Assembly (NCBI GenBank): GCA_029261295.1
Contig: JAJDBP010000002.1
Span: forward strand, 62,001-126,000
Length of the DNA stretch: 64,000 nucleotides
Source: Nitrospirales bacterium
Lineage (GTDB): Bacteria > Nitrospirota > Nitrospiria > Nitrospirales > UBA8639
Direction of reading: 5' to 3'
The position numbers and the translations under genes were made by a program. Positions 8,401-18,598 of this stretch are shown here, piece by piece; the stretch's first letter is position 1; each line of letters opens with the position of its first letter. The notes below the pieces were generated by a model. The model saw only the letters and a program-made list of their open reading frames with translations, did not search any database and had not been told where the DNA came from.

Positions 8401-9426
8401 ATGAAAGCGGTGGGTCGATCTCTCCCACTTCCTATTACTGACCCCGATTCCTTGCAAGACCTCGAGCTTCCCAAGCCTGTTCCACAAGAGAGAGACTTGT
8501 TGGTACAGGTAAAAGCTGTGTCGGTGAATCCTGTCGATACAAAAATTCGTCGCTCTCAACTGACTGATCAAGAAGAATCGACTCCGCGCGTGTTGGGCTG
8601 GGATGTGGCCGGAGTTGTGAAGTCTGTCGGAGCGCAGGTAAGCCTATTTCAATCAGGAGATGAGGTGTATTATTCGGGGAGTCTTATCCGGTCAGGAGGG
8701 AATTGCGAGTATCATTTGGTAGATGAACGTCTTGTTGCAAAGAAACCAGCATCCCTCACAATGGAACAGGCAGCCGCTTTGCCGCTAACGGCTGTTACGG
8801 CATATGAAGCCTTGTTTGATCGAATGGGTATTTCGCAGCAGGGTGAATCAGCTGAGAAATCCATTCTCATTATTGGTGGGGCTGGGGGGGTAGGATCTCT
8901 GGCTATTCAGCTTGCCAAAATTGCGAAACTTCATGTGATTGCTACCGCCTCACGTCCAGAGTCTCAAGCCTGGTGCCGGAAAATGGGGGCAGATGATGTG
9001 ATTGATCATACCCAATCAATGCCCCCGCAACTCCAAAAATTACACAGGCCCATGGTTGAGTATATTTTCAATACTTCTCATATCGATCATTACTGGAAGA
9101 TCATGGGTGAGATTATTATGCCTCAAGGCCGGATTTGTGGAATCGTTGAATCCTCAGGATCGGTTGACCTCAACGTACTCAAGTCAAAAAGTGCTACATT
9201 TGTCTGGGAATTCATGTTTACGCGTTCGATGTACCAGACAGAGGACATGATTGAACAGCATCATCTTCTCACACGAATTGCAGAATGGGTCGATTCCCAA
9301 CAGATCCAATCGACTTTGGCCAAAACGCTCTCACCAATTAATTCGGCTAATCTTCGCCAGGCTCATGCGACGTTGGAGTCAGGGCGCATGGTAGGCAAAC
9401 TCGTGCTTGCCGGTTGGGACTCCTAA
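8401..9426 (+). CDS. Zinc-type alcohol dehydrogenase / quinone oxidoreductase family protein
   Basis: A 341-residue medium-chain dehydrogenase/reductase. The N-terminal GroES-like domain carries AVSVNPVDTKIR and LGWDVAGVVKSVG; the Rossmann domain carries GGAGGVGSLAIQLAK. The form matches the zinc-binding-dehydrogenase subfamily typified by quinone oxidoreductase-like proteins. The structural-zinc cysteines of classical alcohol dehydrogenases are absent. The likely reaction is NADPH-dependent reduction of a quinone or enone; the substrate is unknown. It starts 13 bases after the PhoD gene and may be co-transcribed with it, although the two have no obvious functional link. Confidence 0.85.
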   Translation: MKAVGRSLPLPITDPDSLQDLELPKPVPQERDLLVQVKAVSVNPVDTKIRRSQLTDQEESTPRVLGWDVAGVVKSVGAQVSLFQSGDEVYYSGSLIRSGGNCEYHLVDERLVAKKPASLTMEQAAALPLTAVTAYEALFDRMGISQQGESAEKSILIIGGAGGVGSLAIQLAKIAKLHVIATASRPESQAWCRKMGADDVIDHTQSMPPQLQKLHRPMVEYIFNTSHIDHYWKIMGEIIMPQGRICGIVESSGSVDLNVLKSKSATFVWEFMFTRSMYQTEDMIEQHHLLTRIAEWVDSQQIQSTLAKTLSPINSANLRQAHATLESGRMVGKLVLAGWDS

Positions 9427-9562
9427 GGCCATCAATTTCTCAGTTGCAGAGCACTCATGATGGTTTTTAGCCTTTTCCAATTCCACCGATAGTTCAGTCC
9501 TGGACTATTTGTTTCCGATGGTTGAAGAATGAAAAATTGTCATAACTTGGGAGGACTACACA

Positions 9563-10405
9563 ATGATGATGCCCACTCCTTCCCCGCCGTCCTTCCCTAA
9601 GATTCCACCCTCCTGGCTATGCGAATTGCCAAAAAAAGATCCCTGGTCTCGACCGTTTGCAGAAAGTCTCCTGACCCATCTTGATCTTCATCCCGGATTA
9701 ACGGTTTTAGATGTGAACTGTGGGGATGGGATTCCGGCCTTCACTCTCGCCCATCAGGTTGGTTCGGCAGGACAGGTGTTGGCTATTGATGTCAGTGAAG
9801 GCCAATTAATGAGGGCTAGAGCAGTACAAGGGTCTTACTTTCCTTGGTTGGAGTTCCGCCGAGAAGACGTTAAGCAGTTACCGGAGAACTTAGGTCGCTT
9901 CGATCGAATCACCGGAAATCTCTCGTTCATGTTTTTCCGGCCTGACCGGGAGACCGCGTTGCATCAATTGGTGAGATTTCTAAAGCCGGGAGGCCAACTC
10001 GTTCTCACCTTCCCCTCGCTAGGGACATTCGATTCGTTGTGGGAACGGATCGATCAGGAAATGCAATTGAGAGGATTCATCGCTGAACGCGAACGGTTGG
10101 TGGAATATATTGCCGAAAGGCCCTCAGCAGAAGATGCGAGGAGGTGGTTGATATCTGGTGGCTTGGAACGTCTCGATGTGGCCGAATATCCTTTGGAAGT
10201 CGAGACCGGCCCAGGCCATGAGTTTCTCTATCATCCCTTACTCCGAGGCGGGTTTTTAGATGATGTGTATGAATGCTTCACTGATCAAGAATTAGCTGAA
10301 TCATTTATGCAAGACATTGCCGCAGAGACCTCAAGCTTTGTCCCCCTCATCGCGCAACGCTGTGTGATGTCTGGTTGGGCTCCGAATGATTCTTTGTCAA
10401 TCTAG
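9563..10405 (+). CDS. Class I SAM-dependent methyltransferase
   Basis: The 280-residue cytoplasmic protein shows class I methyltransferase motifs: motif I LTVLDVNCGDGIPAFTLA, acidic motif II VLAIDVSEGQL, motif IV-like FDRITGNLSFMFF, and LVRFLKPGGQLVLTF after it. The glycine-rich loop reads DVNCGDG instead of the usual DxGxGxG. The C-terminal part gives no substrate clue. GGAGGA precedes the ATG. It stands alone and converges on the spondin gene across the hairpin at 10439-10472. Confidence 0.82.
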   Translation: MMMPTPSPPSFPKIPPSWLCELPKKDPWSRPFAESLLTHLDLHPGLTVLDVNCGDGIPAFTLAHQVGSAGQVLAIDVSEGQLMRARAVQGSYFPWLEFRREDVKQLPENLGRFDRITGNLSFMFFRPDRETALHQLVRFLKPGGQLVLTFPSLGTFDSLWERIDQEMQLRGFIAERERLVEYIAERPSAEDARRWLISGGLERLDVAEYPLEVETGPGHEFLYHPLLRGGFLDDVYECFTDQELAESFMQDIAAETSSFVPLIAQRCVMSGWAPNDSLSI

Positions 10406-15198: not shown

Positions 15199-15381
15199 TC
15201 ATGGGCACACATTTTCGTTCTGGCGTCCTCGGAGAATCGGTGCAACCTCCACGTTTTGTGAAGTCACCCATTCGACGCCCCTGAGTTTTTCACGACAGAC
15301 GGCGTTGATCAAATCACGGCCATGATATTGAGTGAGCCAATGGACATCCCAGACGCGAGTGGCTTTTAATTTTGTGTCGTT
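15199..15381 (-). pseudogene. Orphan coding-like fragment downstream of the TPR gene
   Basis: A 60-codon open frame ends in TGA at 15199-15201. It reads as good protein (VWDVHWLTQYHGRDLINAVC, EWVTSQNVEVAPILRG) but has no ATG. It begins inside the 3' end of the TPR gene, in the -1 frame relative to it. It may be the remaining 3' end of a decayed gene, or a C-terminal extension of the TPR protein separated by a frameshift. Family unknown. Confidence 0.4.
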
Positions 15382-17504
15382 TCAGAATATTGTGCCATGG
15401 CCGAGTCCAAACCTTCCAAGATGTTTTCCCGACCATGTCGTTCCACGGCGTGAATCAATTTTAAGACCCAATCTCTTGAAGAGGTAAACTGAGCTTGTGA
15501 ATGAAGGAACTGTTTGATGGCATCAAAGTCCCAGGTCATAAAAAACCCAAGATGCTCCGATGCAATACGTGTTCGAAGATGTTCAAGAACTCTAGGAACT
15601 TTATCATTTTCACCTTCTTCTATGAGCGCTAGGATCAGGAGAATCTGAAGGGCTACTTTGGAGACATTTGTGATGTAGGGGTCTGAAAGTAGGACTGCCA
15701 CCTCTTGCTTGACAAGATTCCACTTTTGTTGAAAAAGCTGGACTTCAACAATATTTGGGCGAATCATAGCCCAATAAGTGGGAAACCTTTCCCTAGTAGA
15801 AACTTCCAGGGCAGTGTGATAGGCGGTCATCGCCTTGTCTAGTAAGCGTTGGCTGTCCCCCCCCGTGGTGCGAGTGCCTTGTTCAGCAAGGACTAACCCC
15901 AGGCTCATCTGGGTCCTAGCCCAGTGTTGAGGGAGCGTGTCGCGGGTATAGATTTCTAAGGCGGCACGATAGGCGGTGACGGCCTCAGACAGCAAACGCT
16001 GGCTATCGACTCTCGTAGCGTGGCGACCTTGGATCGAGAGTGTGTTCCCCAAGTTCATCTGGGTCATGGCCCAATCTTGGGGCAGTGTGTCGCGGGTAAA
16101 AACTTTTAAGGCAGCACGATAGGCGGTGATGGCCTCAGACAGCCAGCGTTGACTGTCGGTCGCCGTGGTGTGGTTGGCCTGCAACGAGAGGGCAGTTCCC
16201 ATGTTCACCTGGGTCGAGGCCCAGGCTTGGGGTAGCGTGTTGGGGGTAAAGACTTCTAAGGCGTCACGATAGGCGGTGATGGCCTCGGTCAGCAAGTGTT
16301 GGCTGTCGGCCCCCCTTGTGCGGCTGGCCTGATCTGAAAGGGCATTTCCCATGTTCACCTGGGTCTTAGCCCAGTGTTGCGGAAAGGTTTCTCGAGAATA
16401 CACCTTTTGAGCCTGTTGGTAAGCCATTATGGAACGTTGAAGATGGGCGCTTATTTTCTCCCCTTCCGTTCGGATGGCAATTTGATTGTTGACGTTTCCT
16501 AGGTTGATTAATAGGGAGGCCCAAGCTGTGGGATTGGACTCCTGGGTTACGTAGGTGAAGGCTTTTTCATAGGTTTCCAATGCCTGTTCGAATTTGTAAT
16601 TTGTGTACAGCGCATTGCCGGCTTTTCGTAAATCTTCCACTATGTCTTCAGTCACCCGCCGCAACTTCTGTTCTAAGGCATTGAGTTGGGCCTCGTTTCC
16701 GTCTTCACTGTCTAAAGACATTTTTCTTATCTGACCTACCGTTTGTTTGCTCCAGCTTACGGCGTAGATGGTGGAAGAATGTGGTCTATTCCCTTGGCTA
16801 CTCTGTTTGTTTTTCAATCGTTCAATTTCCTGTAGTAATTCATCTCGGGTCAGCTCTTTTTCTTTGGCGGCTTGCTTGAAATATCCAGCGGCCTGATCAG
16901 GGCGTTTGTTAAAGATGGCGGCCATCCCTTGTTTCGAAGGGTCGTCGGACTGAGCATATTGATTTTTCAATGTTCTTAAGCGATCTAATACAATATCCTC
17001 TGGCACTCCGTTCTTTCTGGCCCATTCTCGGGCGAAAGTATAGGGGTCGAAGTCATCGGCTTTTCCATCTTGGGTGACTTGAGTCAACGATTCTTCCAAG
17101 GTTTTTTCCATGACCTTGCTCATATGTTCTGGAGACTGTAGTTCGGGTGCGCCTTTGCGGACCAGAAGGATTTTGACAAAGGTCTGGTCAAGGTTTTCAG
17201 GCATTGGGAATTCTCCTTCGACAGGATCCGACAGCACCCAATTTCTGAATTTGCCATGGAGAATAATCGTCGGGGCCGTCTGGAGAATATCGGGGACAAA
17301 GACGCCAAACCCGCCATCTGCTTTTGTGACGTCGGGGTTCCCGACTCCTACGATGGAGACCATGGCAGGGCTGGCCGGTTCTTTTGTGCCCCCATCGCGA
17401 ACGAGAAGCACCTGGCCTTTGAGGCTCTTGCCTTCCGATGGCCCGACCAGTAGCACAGACGTCGCAAGTACGCTGATCCCCAAAAGGAAAAAAGTGTTCC
17501 TCAT
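15366..17504 (-). CDS. Exported TPR-repeat protein with carboxypeptidase-regulatory-like domain
   Basis: The 712-residue protein has a signal peptide (FFLLGISVLATSVLLVGPSEG). A carboxypeptidase-regulatory-like domain follows at about residues 28-112 (KGQVLLVRDGG ... VTKADGGFGVFVPD ... FVKILLVRKG). A helical linker leads to TPR-type repeats. The last four to five units are near-identical 50-residue repeats built on AITAYRxALxVFTRxTLPQxWA. The start overlaps the end of the TIR gene by four bases (ATGA), so translation is probably coupled. Shared domains suggest the two proteins meet in the periplasm. TPRs mediate protein binding; no enzyme domain is visible. Confidence 0.82.
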   Translation of the reverse strand: MRNTFFLLGISVLATSVLLVGPSEGKSLKGQVLLVRDGGTKEPASPAMVSIVGVGNPDVTKADGGFGVFVPDILQTAPTIILHGKFRNWVLSDPVEGEFPMPENLDQTFVKILLVRKGAPELQSPEHMSKVMEKTLEESLTQVTQDGKADDFDPYTFAREWARKNGVPEDIVLDRLRTLKNQYAQSDDPSKQGMAAIFNKRPDQAAGYFKQAAKEKELTRDELLQEIERLKNKQSSQGNRPHSSTIYAVSWSKQTVGQIRKMSLDSEDGNEAQLNALEQKLRRVTEDIVEDLRKAGNALYTNYKFEQALETYEKAFTYVTQESNPTAWASLLINLGNVNNQIAIRTEGEKISAHLQRSIMAYQQAQKVYSRETFPQHWAKTQVNMGNALSDQASRTRGADSQHLLTEAITAYRDALEVFTPNTLPQAWASTQVNMGTALSLQANHTTATDSQRWLSEAITAYRAALKVFTRDTLPQDWAMTQMNLGNTLSIQGRHATRVDSQRLLSEAVTAYRAALEIYTRDTLPQHWARTQMSLGLVLAEQGTRTTGGDSQRLLDKAMTAYHTALEVSTRERFPTYWAMIRPNIVEVQLFQQKWNLVKQEVAVLLSDPYITNVSKVALQILLILALIEEGENDKVPRVLEHLRTRIASEHLGFFMTWDFDAIKQFLHSQAQFTSSRDWVLKLIHAVERHGRENILEGLDSAMAQYSETTQN
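15780..16470 (-). repeat. 150-base tandem repeats within the TPR gene
   Basis: Units of 150 bases recur with the same phase, for example at 15812, 15962, 16112, 16262 and, more weakly, 16412. The common core on the plus strand is GATAGGCGGTGATGGCCTC. Each encodes one 50-residue TPR-like unit. The high DNA similarity suggests recent expansion by recombination and possible copy-number variation between strains. Confidence 0.8.
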
Positions 17505-18400
17505 TTCTTCTTGTCCAAAAGAAAGTTGATGTTGGTGTTTCCCAGATTTCCTGAACTTCGTAACAGTTGATAGGCTATTTTTTGAACGAGGATTTCAATC
17601 TTTTGTTGTTTAGGGCCTTGGACCCGAAAGTCCCAATGGCCATGCGAATCCGTCTTCGTCATTTTTTGGAACTTTGGCAACGAGACTTCTACCCCTTCAA
17701 TGGGGCTGCCTTCTTCGTCAAAAACGGATCCACCCACTTCCTGCTCTAGCACCACATCTTTTTCTCCAGTGGTGAGATAGAAGACAAATCCGATGACCAT
17801 GAGGCCTAGCAGGGCGAGCCCGATAATCAGCCCCTTTTGAGGGGCAGGGGATGTCACATTGGTAATGTTCACATCCCCACCTGCCTGGATGTTGTCCCTG
17901 TGCACTACCCATCCTTCTTGATCAAACAACACTTTGGCTTTCGCGAGAACGGTTTCGGGATTCCCATGGGGAATGTTGGCTAATGTTTGAATGACCTCCG
18001 CTCTCTCCGATTGGGTGGCTTGGTTAGAAGGCTGTTGCGTTGCCTCAAGGATCCTTGAGATGGCTTGTGGTCTTTCGCGTGCTCGAATCGTTTCTAGAGA
18101 GCGGAGAGAGGCAGGAAGCTGGGTGTCGTCAAGTTTGAGGAGAATTATTTTCTTTTTGAGTGCAAGAGCCGTGCACCATTCTAATTCCACAAAGTGTGAT
18201 TGTGCAGCCTGTTTCGACCAGACTAAAAGGAAGTCGTTCTGTTGATCGATGGCTTCCCCGAGGACTTTCGGCCATTTCTTGCCGCCATGTATTTTTTCTT
18301 GGTCGCGCCAGATGGCTAGACCATTGTTGGAGAGTTCTTCCAACAGTGGGAGTATTTCGTTTAGGTCAGTACGTGAATAACTCAGAAAGGCGCTTGGCAT
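17501..18400 (-). CDS. Membrane-anchored TIR-domain protein
   Basis: The 299-residue protein has an N-terminal TIR domain (about 1-125) with FLSYSRTDL as box 1. HFVELEWCTAL holds a glutamate (E74) at the position of the catalytic residue of NAD-cleaving TIRs. A linker contains the NIQAGGDVNITNV motif. One transmembrane helix lies at about 190-210 (LIIGLALLGLMVIGFVFYL), and a carboxypeptidase-regulatory-like domain at about 220-295 (GGSVFDEEGSPIEGVEVSLP ... KTDSHGHWDF). The TIR would be cytosolic and the C-terminal domain periplasmic. It overlaps the TPR gene by four bases. NADase activity and a defence or signalling role are inferences from family knowledge. Confidence 0.85.
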   Translation of the reverse strand: MPSAFLSYSRTDLNEILPLLEELSNNGLAIWRDQEKIHGGKKWPKVLGEAIDQQNDFLLVWSKQAAQSHFVELEWCTALALKKKIILLKLDDTQLPASLRSLETIRARERPQAISRILEATQQPSNQATQSERAEVIQTLANIPHGNPETVLAKAKVLFDQEGWVVHRDNIQAGGDVNITNVTSPAPQKGLIIGLALLGLMVIGFVFYLTTGEKDVVLEQEVGGSVFDEEGSPIEGVEVSLPKFQKMTKTDSHGHWDFRVQGPKQQKIEILVQKIAYQLLRSSGNLGNTNINFLLDKKK

Positions 18401-18415: not shown

Positions 18416-18598
18416 TCAGGTGTACTTTGCGACCCTATCAGTTTGGGCATGGCGAAACATACTGAAGATGAATATTTTAGGCAAGCGCGTGGGAGGAAGG
18501 GAGTAAATCCTCTTCCAGCCGTTGTCCTCGAGCCATTGGGCGAGGGCTAAAGCCTGGGCATTGTTGGTGCTTGAGTGGCTGATGAAGATTTTGGACAT
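18416..18598 (-). pseudogene. Truncated TIR-domain gene
   Basis: The first 28 residues (MSKIFISHSSTNNAQALALA... to DNGW) are a clear TIR-domain start. The frame then becomes unrelated and stops after 60 residues, well short of the roughly 130 needed for a TIR fold. A neighbouring frame continues for only a few residues (EEDLLPSS). It lies 15 bases upstream of the intact TIR gene in the same direction, so it is probably the remnant of a second TIR gene or of a former 5' partner. A working product is unlikely. Confidence 0.6.

Follow-up and report, generated by a model that had tools for sequence, protein, structure and literature searches.

A TIR gene and a secreted TPR gene overlap in a Nitrospirales genome

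We analysed a 64,000-nucleotide stretch of a Nitrospirales genome (contig JAJDBP010000002.1, positions 62,001 to 126,000; hereafter the window), whose nearest named relatives in our searches were Nitrospirales metagenome-assembled genomes such as RBC_NOB5, and in which two genes on the reverse strand form a tight pair. The first (17501..18400) encodes a protein of 299 amino acids (aa) that combines a TIR domain, a transmembrane (TM) helix and a carboxypeptidase-regulatory-like (CPR) domain, that is, a putative cytosolic effector, a membrane anchor and a putative periplasmic docking domain. The second (15366..17504) encodes its partner, a predicted secreted protein of 712 aa in which a CPR domain is followed by a helical segment and TPR repeats. 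The two open reading frames (ORFs) share the 4 nt of an ATGA stop/start motif (17501..17504), an overlap that a first-pass annotation of this DNA had already reported and which we read as translational coupling.

The TIR domain (18026..18400, residues ~1-125) is predicted to be cytosolic and is followed by a helical linker, a single TM helix and the C-terminal CPR domain. The Pfam profile TIR_2 matches residues 5-117 above its cut-off (1.7e-16), the AlphaFold2 (AF2) model adopts a TIR fold that Foldseek matches to the TIR domains of MyD88, SARM1 and SPARTA, and a profile search against the PDB returned the CRISPR effector Cat1 as the nearest TIR by sequence (1.4e-6), together with SARM1. Residue E74 (codon 18179..18181), which the first-pass annotation had singled out as a likely catalytic glutamate, is invariant in 19 homologues and lines up with the catalytic glutamate of SARM1; it is the putative catalytic residue for NAD+ cleavage. 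The TM helix (17771..17833, residues ~190-210) was placed by hydropathy and flanking charges in 26 homologues. The transthyretin-like CPR domain (17504..17749, residues 218-299), predicted to be periplasmic, is modelled with pLDDT values mostly >93 and resembles in Foldseek the transthyretin-like domain of carboxypeptidase D and the N-terminal extension domains of SusC proteins; its Pfam match to CarbopepD_reg_2 (residues 222-296, 3.5e-6) falls under the Pfam gathering score. For the whole model the mean pLDDT is 82.6, good in the TIR and CPR domains and low in the linker and TM helix. The arrangement first proposed for this protein, with a cytosolic TIR, one helix and a periplasmic CPR domain, is thus borne out in its domains and its single helix, while the flanking charges (a positive-inside bias over the 26 homologues) weakly favour the N-inside orientation. 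Directly upstream of the TIR gene lies a 60-aa ORF (18416-18598, reverse strand) whose start, MSKIFISHSSTNNAQALALAQWLEDNGW, resembles that of another TIR protein before the similarity is lost; it is probably what is left of a different, second TIR gene.

The partner begins with a predicted signal peptide (17430..17504, residues ~1-25; MRNTFFLLGISVLATSVLLVGPSEG), called from sequence and hydropathy, and its hydrophobic N-terminus is conserved in homologues. Next come a CPR domain (17154..17426, residues ~27-117), which forms beta-strands in the AF2 model, and a helical adaptor segment (16797..17147, residues ~120-236), seen in the same model and conserved across four phyla. A TPR solenoid (15555..16667, residues ~280-650), supported by Pfam (TPR_12), AF2, Foldseek (which matches the TPRs of LGN/Pins) and repeat analysis, occupies most of the remainder, and the mean pLDDT of the model is 88.3. 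Across loci the 50-aa repeat units vary in number, their mean likeness within one protein reaching 95% (L110), and partners are between 435 and 1457 aa long. Such variability suits a recognition surface, although recombination that merely changes the repeats rapidly would produce the same picture.

The first-pass annotation had also claimed that the TPR protein bears the same kind of domain as the TIR protein after its signal peptide. Pfam detected no CPR domain in the TPR protein and by itself does not settle the matter, but a comparison of the two CPR families with hhalign showed that they are related (probability 96.7, E 3.7e-10), which upholds the claim. A profile built from the first ~230 residues of the TPR protein matched, through its CPR part only, the N-termini of ORFs of ~1,000 aa (SusC-like lengths, from Bacteroidota). 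Since profiles that contain the CPR domain catch these N-termini, which are probably SusC-like, most of the domain was excluded from a later profile (A7).

Linkage, distribution and selection

When 97 relatives were searched with either protein, the pair was found adjacent in ten other genomes. We then sampled four phyla with profiles of the partner only (A3, A4 and finally A7), the TIR domain being left out of the search; a contig scan with a single-protein pattern returned nothing, while an alignment-based scan succeeded. These profiles recovered 26 full-length partner loci (14 in Nitrospirota, eight in KSB1, three in Acidobacteriota and one in Bacteroidota), and a TM-CPR gene adjoins the partner at all 26, three of them with a frame-broken member. 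Co-occurrence of the two genes elsewhere, which had been suggested as a check on the pair, therefore extends over four phyla, and a linkage of 26/26 rules out chance adjacency.

Adding the loci found through the TIR domain brings those with a complete partner to ~37, among which the junction is a 4-nt overlap at ~20 and a 1-nt overlap at seven. The effector gene normally comes first; in L121 the gene order is reversed. The system occurs in 16 of the 395 Nitrospirota genomes, 10 of the 82 KSB1, 3 of the 347 Acidobacteriota and 1 of the 395 Bacteroidota. Both genes show dN/dS values of 0.10-0.35 between close pairs, that is, purifying selection, which rules out a pseudogene or neutral pair even though several Nitrospira loci (L068, L069, L070, L115 and L135) have decayed by frameshift or deletion. 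This decay indicates that the system is accessory and repeatedly lost.

Several matches were set aside as partners: the CPR part is missing from the short TPR proteins G017, G036, G038 and G078, G021 is a TPR array at a contig edge, and L181 and L182 are partner relatives that lack the CPR domain and have no TM-CPR neighbour. In the Acidobacteriota locus L175 (2410-14871) one TM-CPR gene heads four tandem partner paralogues of 773-1077 aa. At L068 (8835-10883), a single ORF of 682 aa joins TIR-TM-CPR to the TPR repeats, apparently through an in-frame deletion, and this fusion may be a decayed copy although its frame is open.

The cytosolic domain is exchanged and the membrane half co-diverges with the partner

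Four KSB1 genomes have the same partner family next to a CHAT-TM-CPR gene instead of a TIR-TM-CPR gene. The CHAT domains were matched at 7.5e-9 (L178), 2.8e-32 (L183) and 7.3e-7 (L184), and at 7.9e-5 in the contig-truncated L180, and the His and Cys motifs are kept in L178 (HYAGHANG/LNGCST), L183 (HYAGHGAF/LNACQG) and L184 (HFCGHGEQ/LNACYS). A segment made of a juxtamembrane 'ERWQTWV' motif, the TM helix and the CPR domain is common to the CHAT-type proteins of L178 and L183 and to the TIR-type protein of L112, indicating that only the cytosolic end has been exchanged. The TIR domain of L176 belongs to a different subtype (TIR_2, 6.8e-29). The other half may also be replaceable: in L071 (15937-18479), a second TIR-TM-CPR gene, 9.7 kb from a regular pair on the same contig, overlaps a gene whose lipoprotein-like product is a CPR-PD40 beta-propeller protein, a possible swap of the sensor.

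Distances between partners correlate with those between TM-CPR regions (r 0.69) and between TIR domains (r 0.50; Mantel p 0.0005 for each), and the TM-CPR correlation exceeds that of the TIR domain in 998 of 1000 bootstraps and after removal of outliers. The partner thus tracks the TM-CPR part better than the TIR domain, as would be expected if one CPR domain contacts the other and it is the effector that moves.

A proposed trans-envelope switch and its rivals

The first-pass annotation had seen in the pair an envelope-sensing signalling or defence system. Its anatomy and the swapping of its effector fit signalling from the outside to the TIR domain, but evidence from defence islands is scant. 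Our preferred reading, to which we give a probability of about 0.55, is a modular two-gene trans-envelope switch in which docking of an outside sensor through CPR domains sets off a TIR or CHAT effector in the cytosol; its purpose would probably be conditional self-harm or defence. The secreted TPR protein, located in the periplasm or at the surface, would be the sensor, and we infer that its CPR domain docks with that of the single-pass protein in the inner membrane. Binding or loss of a ligand by the TPR solenoid, in response to the envelope or the outside, would cause the complex to cluster or rearrange and so bring the cytosolic N-terminal TIR domains together; because TIRs act by self-assembly, the assembled domains would hydrolyse NAD+, and the cell would be stopped or killed. 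Several effectors would be able to plug in at this position, the TIR being one and the CHAT protease, which takes its place in relatives, another. It is tempting to go further and recognize a new class of outside-in immune receptors, with a repeat-variable secreted sensor, transthyretin-like docking, a single-pass anchor and a death effector for which TIR NADase and CHAT protease are interchangeable. Such a class would be the topological equivalent in bacteria of Toll-like receptors, but this we put forward tentatively, at somewhat less than even odds.

Several observations pull the other way. The positive-inside signal is weak, and in the TIR protein of the window the helix is flanked by a single basic residue at either end. 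The CHAT remnant of L180 is without its Cys, and in L175, L179 and L185 the TM-CPR protein carries no recognisable effector, and the sensor half may therefore serve other purposes as well. We looked for the pair in defence islands with little success: its flanks, in Nitrospira and elsewhere, are mostly housekeeping genes, which weakens an anti-phage reading, and the hints to the contrary are scattered. We found no copy in phage, plasmid or viral-contig collections, which speaks against cargo of mobile elements. On the side of defence, the presence of TIR and CHAT in one slot, the patchy distribution, the repeated loss and the repeat-variable sensor are suggestive. Anti-phage activity is one option, and the sensing of competitors, predators or envelope damage is equally open.

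The main rival uses the same parts with the opposite sign of control. The TPR protein would be a periplasmic, antitoxin-like restraint whose loss or displacement, for example through a breach of the envelope or loss of the gene, would leave the TIR free to kill. Tight translational coupling and strict co-occurrence would suit such a pair, as would the joint decay of both halves that is often seen in broken loci (L135, L070, L115). However, in toxin-antitoxin pairs the restraint gene more often comes first, while here it is normally the effector gene; the partner of G027 is frame-broken beside an intact TIR, although this may be an assembly error; and a partner that varies in size to this extent is more like a recognition surface. 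We regard restraint as unlikely.

The pair could instead serve envelope-stress or developmental signalling, the TIR and CHAT domains acting in assembly or processing and having no part in immunity or cell death. The housekeeping neighbourhoods and the lack of mobile copies speak for this, and one CHAT relative resembles HetF, a cyanobacterial cell-division and differentiation protease. Patchy distribution, repeated decay in Nitrospira and TIR/CHAT swapping are, however, more typical of conflict systems, and we rate this explanation as improbable too, on a par with restraint. Least probable of the three is a Thoeris-like relay, in which the TIR makes an ADP-ribose-type messenger for an unlinked receptor elsewhere in the genome: the weak matches of the TIR to ThsB and ThcB4 profiles point that way, but no conserved receptor gene lies beside the pair and a CHAT domain in the same slot is ill-suited to a messenger-maker.

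Relation to known systems

The trans-envelope switch that we favour has its closest relatives, as far as the TIR domain is concerned, in Cat1 of type III CRISPR, the SPARTA TIR-APAZ protein, TIR-SAVED and ThsB, which have the same TIR_2-type fold and conserved glutamate. These bacterial immune TIR effectors sense inside the cell through cytosolic sensor domains, whereas the TIR of the window is membrane-anchored and has a secreted partner. In the window protein, matches to PADLOC TIR profiles are confined to the TIR region; those to ThsB are weak, and the one to ThcB4 lies far below cut-off. We found no ThsA-type receptor gene adjacent in the ORFs read at the window and ten or more loci, and no SAVED, STING or CARF domain of the CBASS or type III CRISPR kind on the TIR protein, which holds only TIR and CPR domains besides the TM helix and linker. 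There was no APAZ match in the window pair, and the gene beside the TIR gene is the TPR gene, not a short pAgo.

The CPR domains of the pair belong to the same domain family as the secreted or periplasmic CPR domain of SusC-like TonB transporters, where it is an N-terminal extension of an outer-membrane transporter and not a docking element between effector and sensor. Animal Toll-like receptors offer an analogy only: like the pair they have a sensor outside, one helix and a cytosolic TIR domain, but in the pair the chain runs in the opposite orientation, the sensor is a separate protein and its repeats are TPR, not LRR (the sequences were compared for the TIR fold only).

The nearest concept that we met is 'System 4', the EACC1-caspase two-gene membrane system of Kaur et al. 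2020 (PMC7159879). It likewise has two genes and a membrane-spanning component, with caspase-type effectors that have variable modules; EACC1, however, is not described as a CPR protein, a secreted TPR partner is not mentioned, and it is the caspase that stays constant. The sole match to the EACC1-caspase model was the CHAT relative at 0.0077, far below cut-off, and NCBIfam gave no EACC1 match among the window proteins, the EACC1 profile itself not having been searched directly. We found no description of such a pair, whose two-gene design the first-pass annotation did not recognise either, in Pfam, NCBIfam, PADLOC or the literature searched, which left most subscription papers and preprints outside its coverage, and an earlier description may exist. 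To our knowledge, nearly all characterised bacterial TIR and CHAT immune effectors are switched on by intracellular sensors. If our reading is correct, the pair would show how a signal from beyond the cytoplasm is linked in bacteria, without intermediaries, to a death-type enzyme, with interchangeable effectors inside; it would also provide a minimal two-gene system for studying outside-in activation of TIR domains.

Genes around the pair

We found no conserved third gene at the loci examined. PADLOC-DB 2023 gave no profile match for the partners of the window, L118, L124 and L178; the partner in L183 matched a generic TPR profile and had a weak match to one more profile. Near the Cyclobacterium pair (L118) lies an HNH endonuclease gene (8689-9705) whose product resembles the SAVED-HNH effectors of CBASS and PDC-M68A (7e-36), and integrase fragments flank that locus on both sides. 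The KSB1 locus L178 (1-13433) encodes, besides its CHAT-TM-CPR protein, two further CHAT-like proteins and a large TPR-like one, as well as a TIR protein that seems by eye to end in a formylglycine-generating-enzyme domain; it is a cluster of conflict-type genes.
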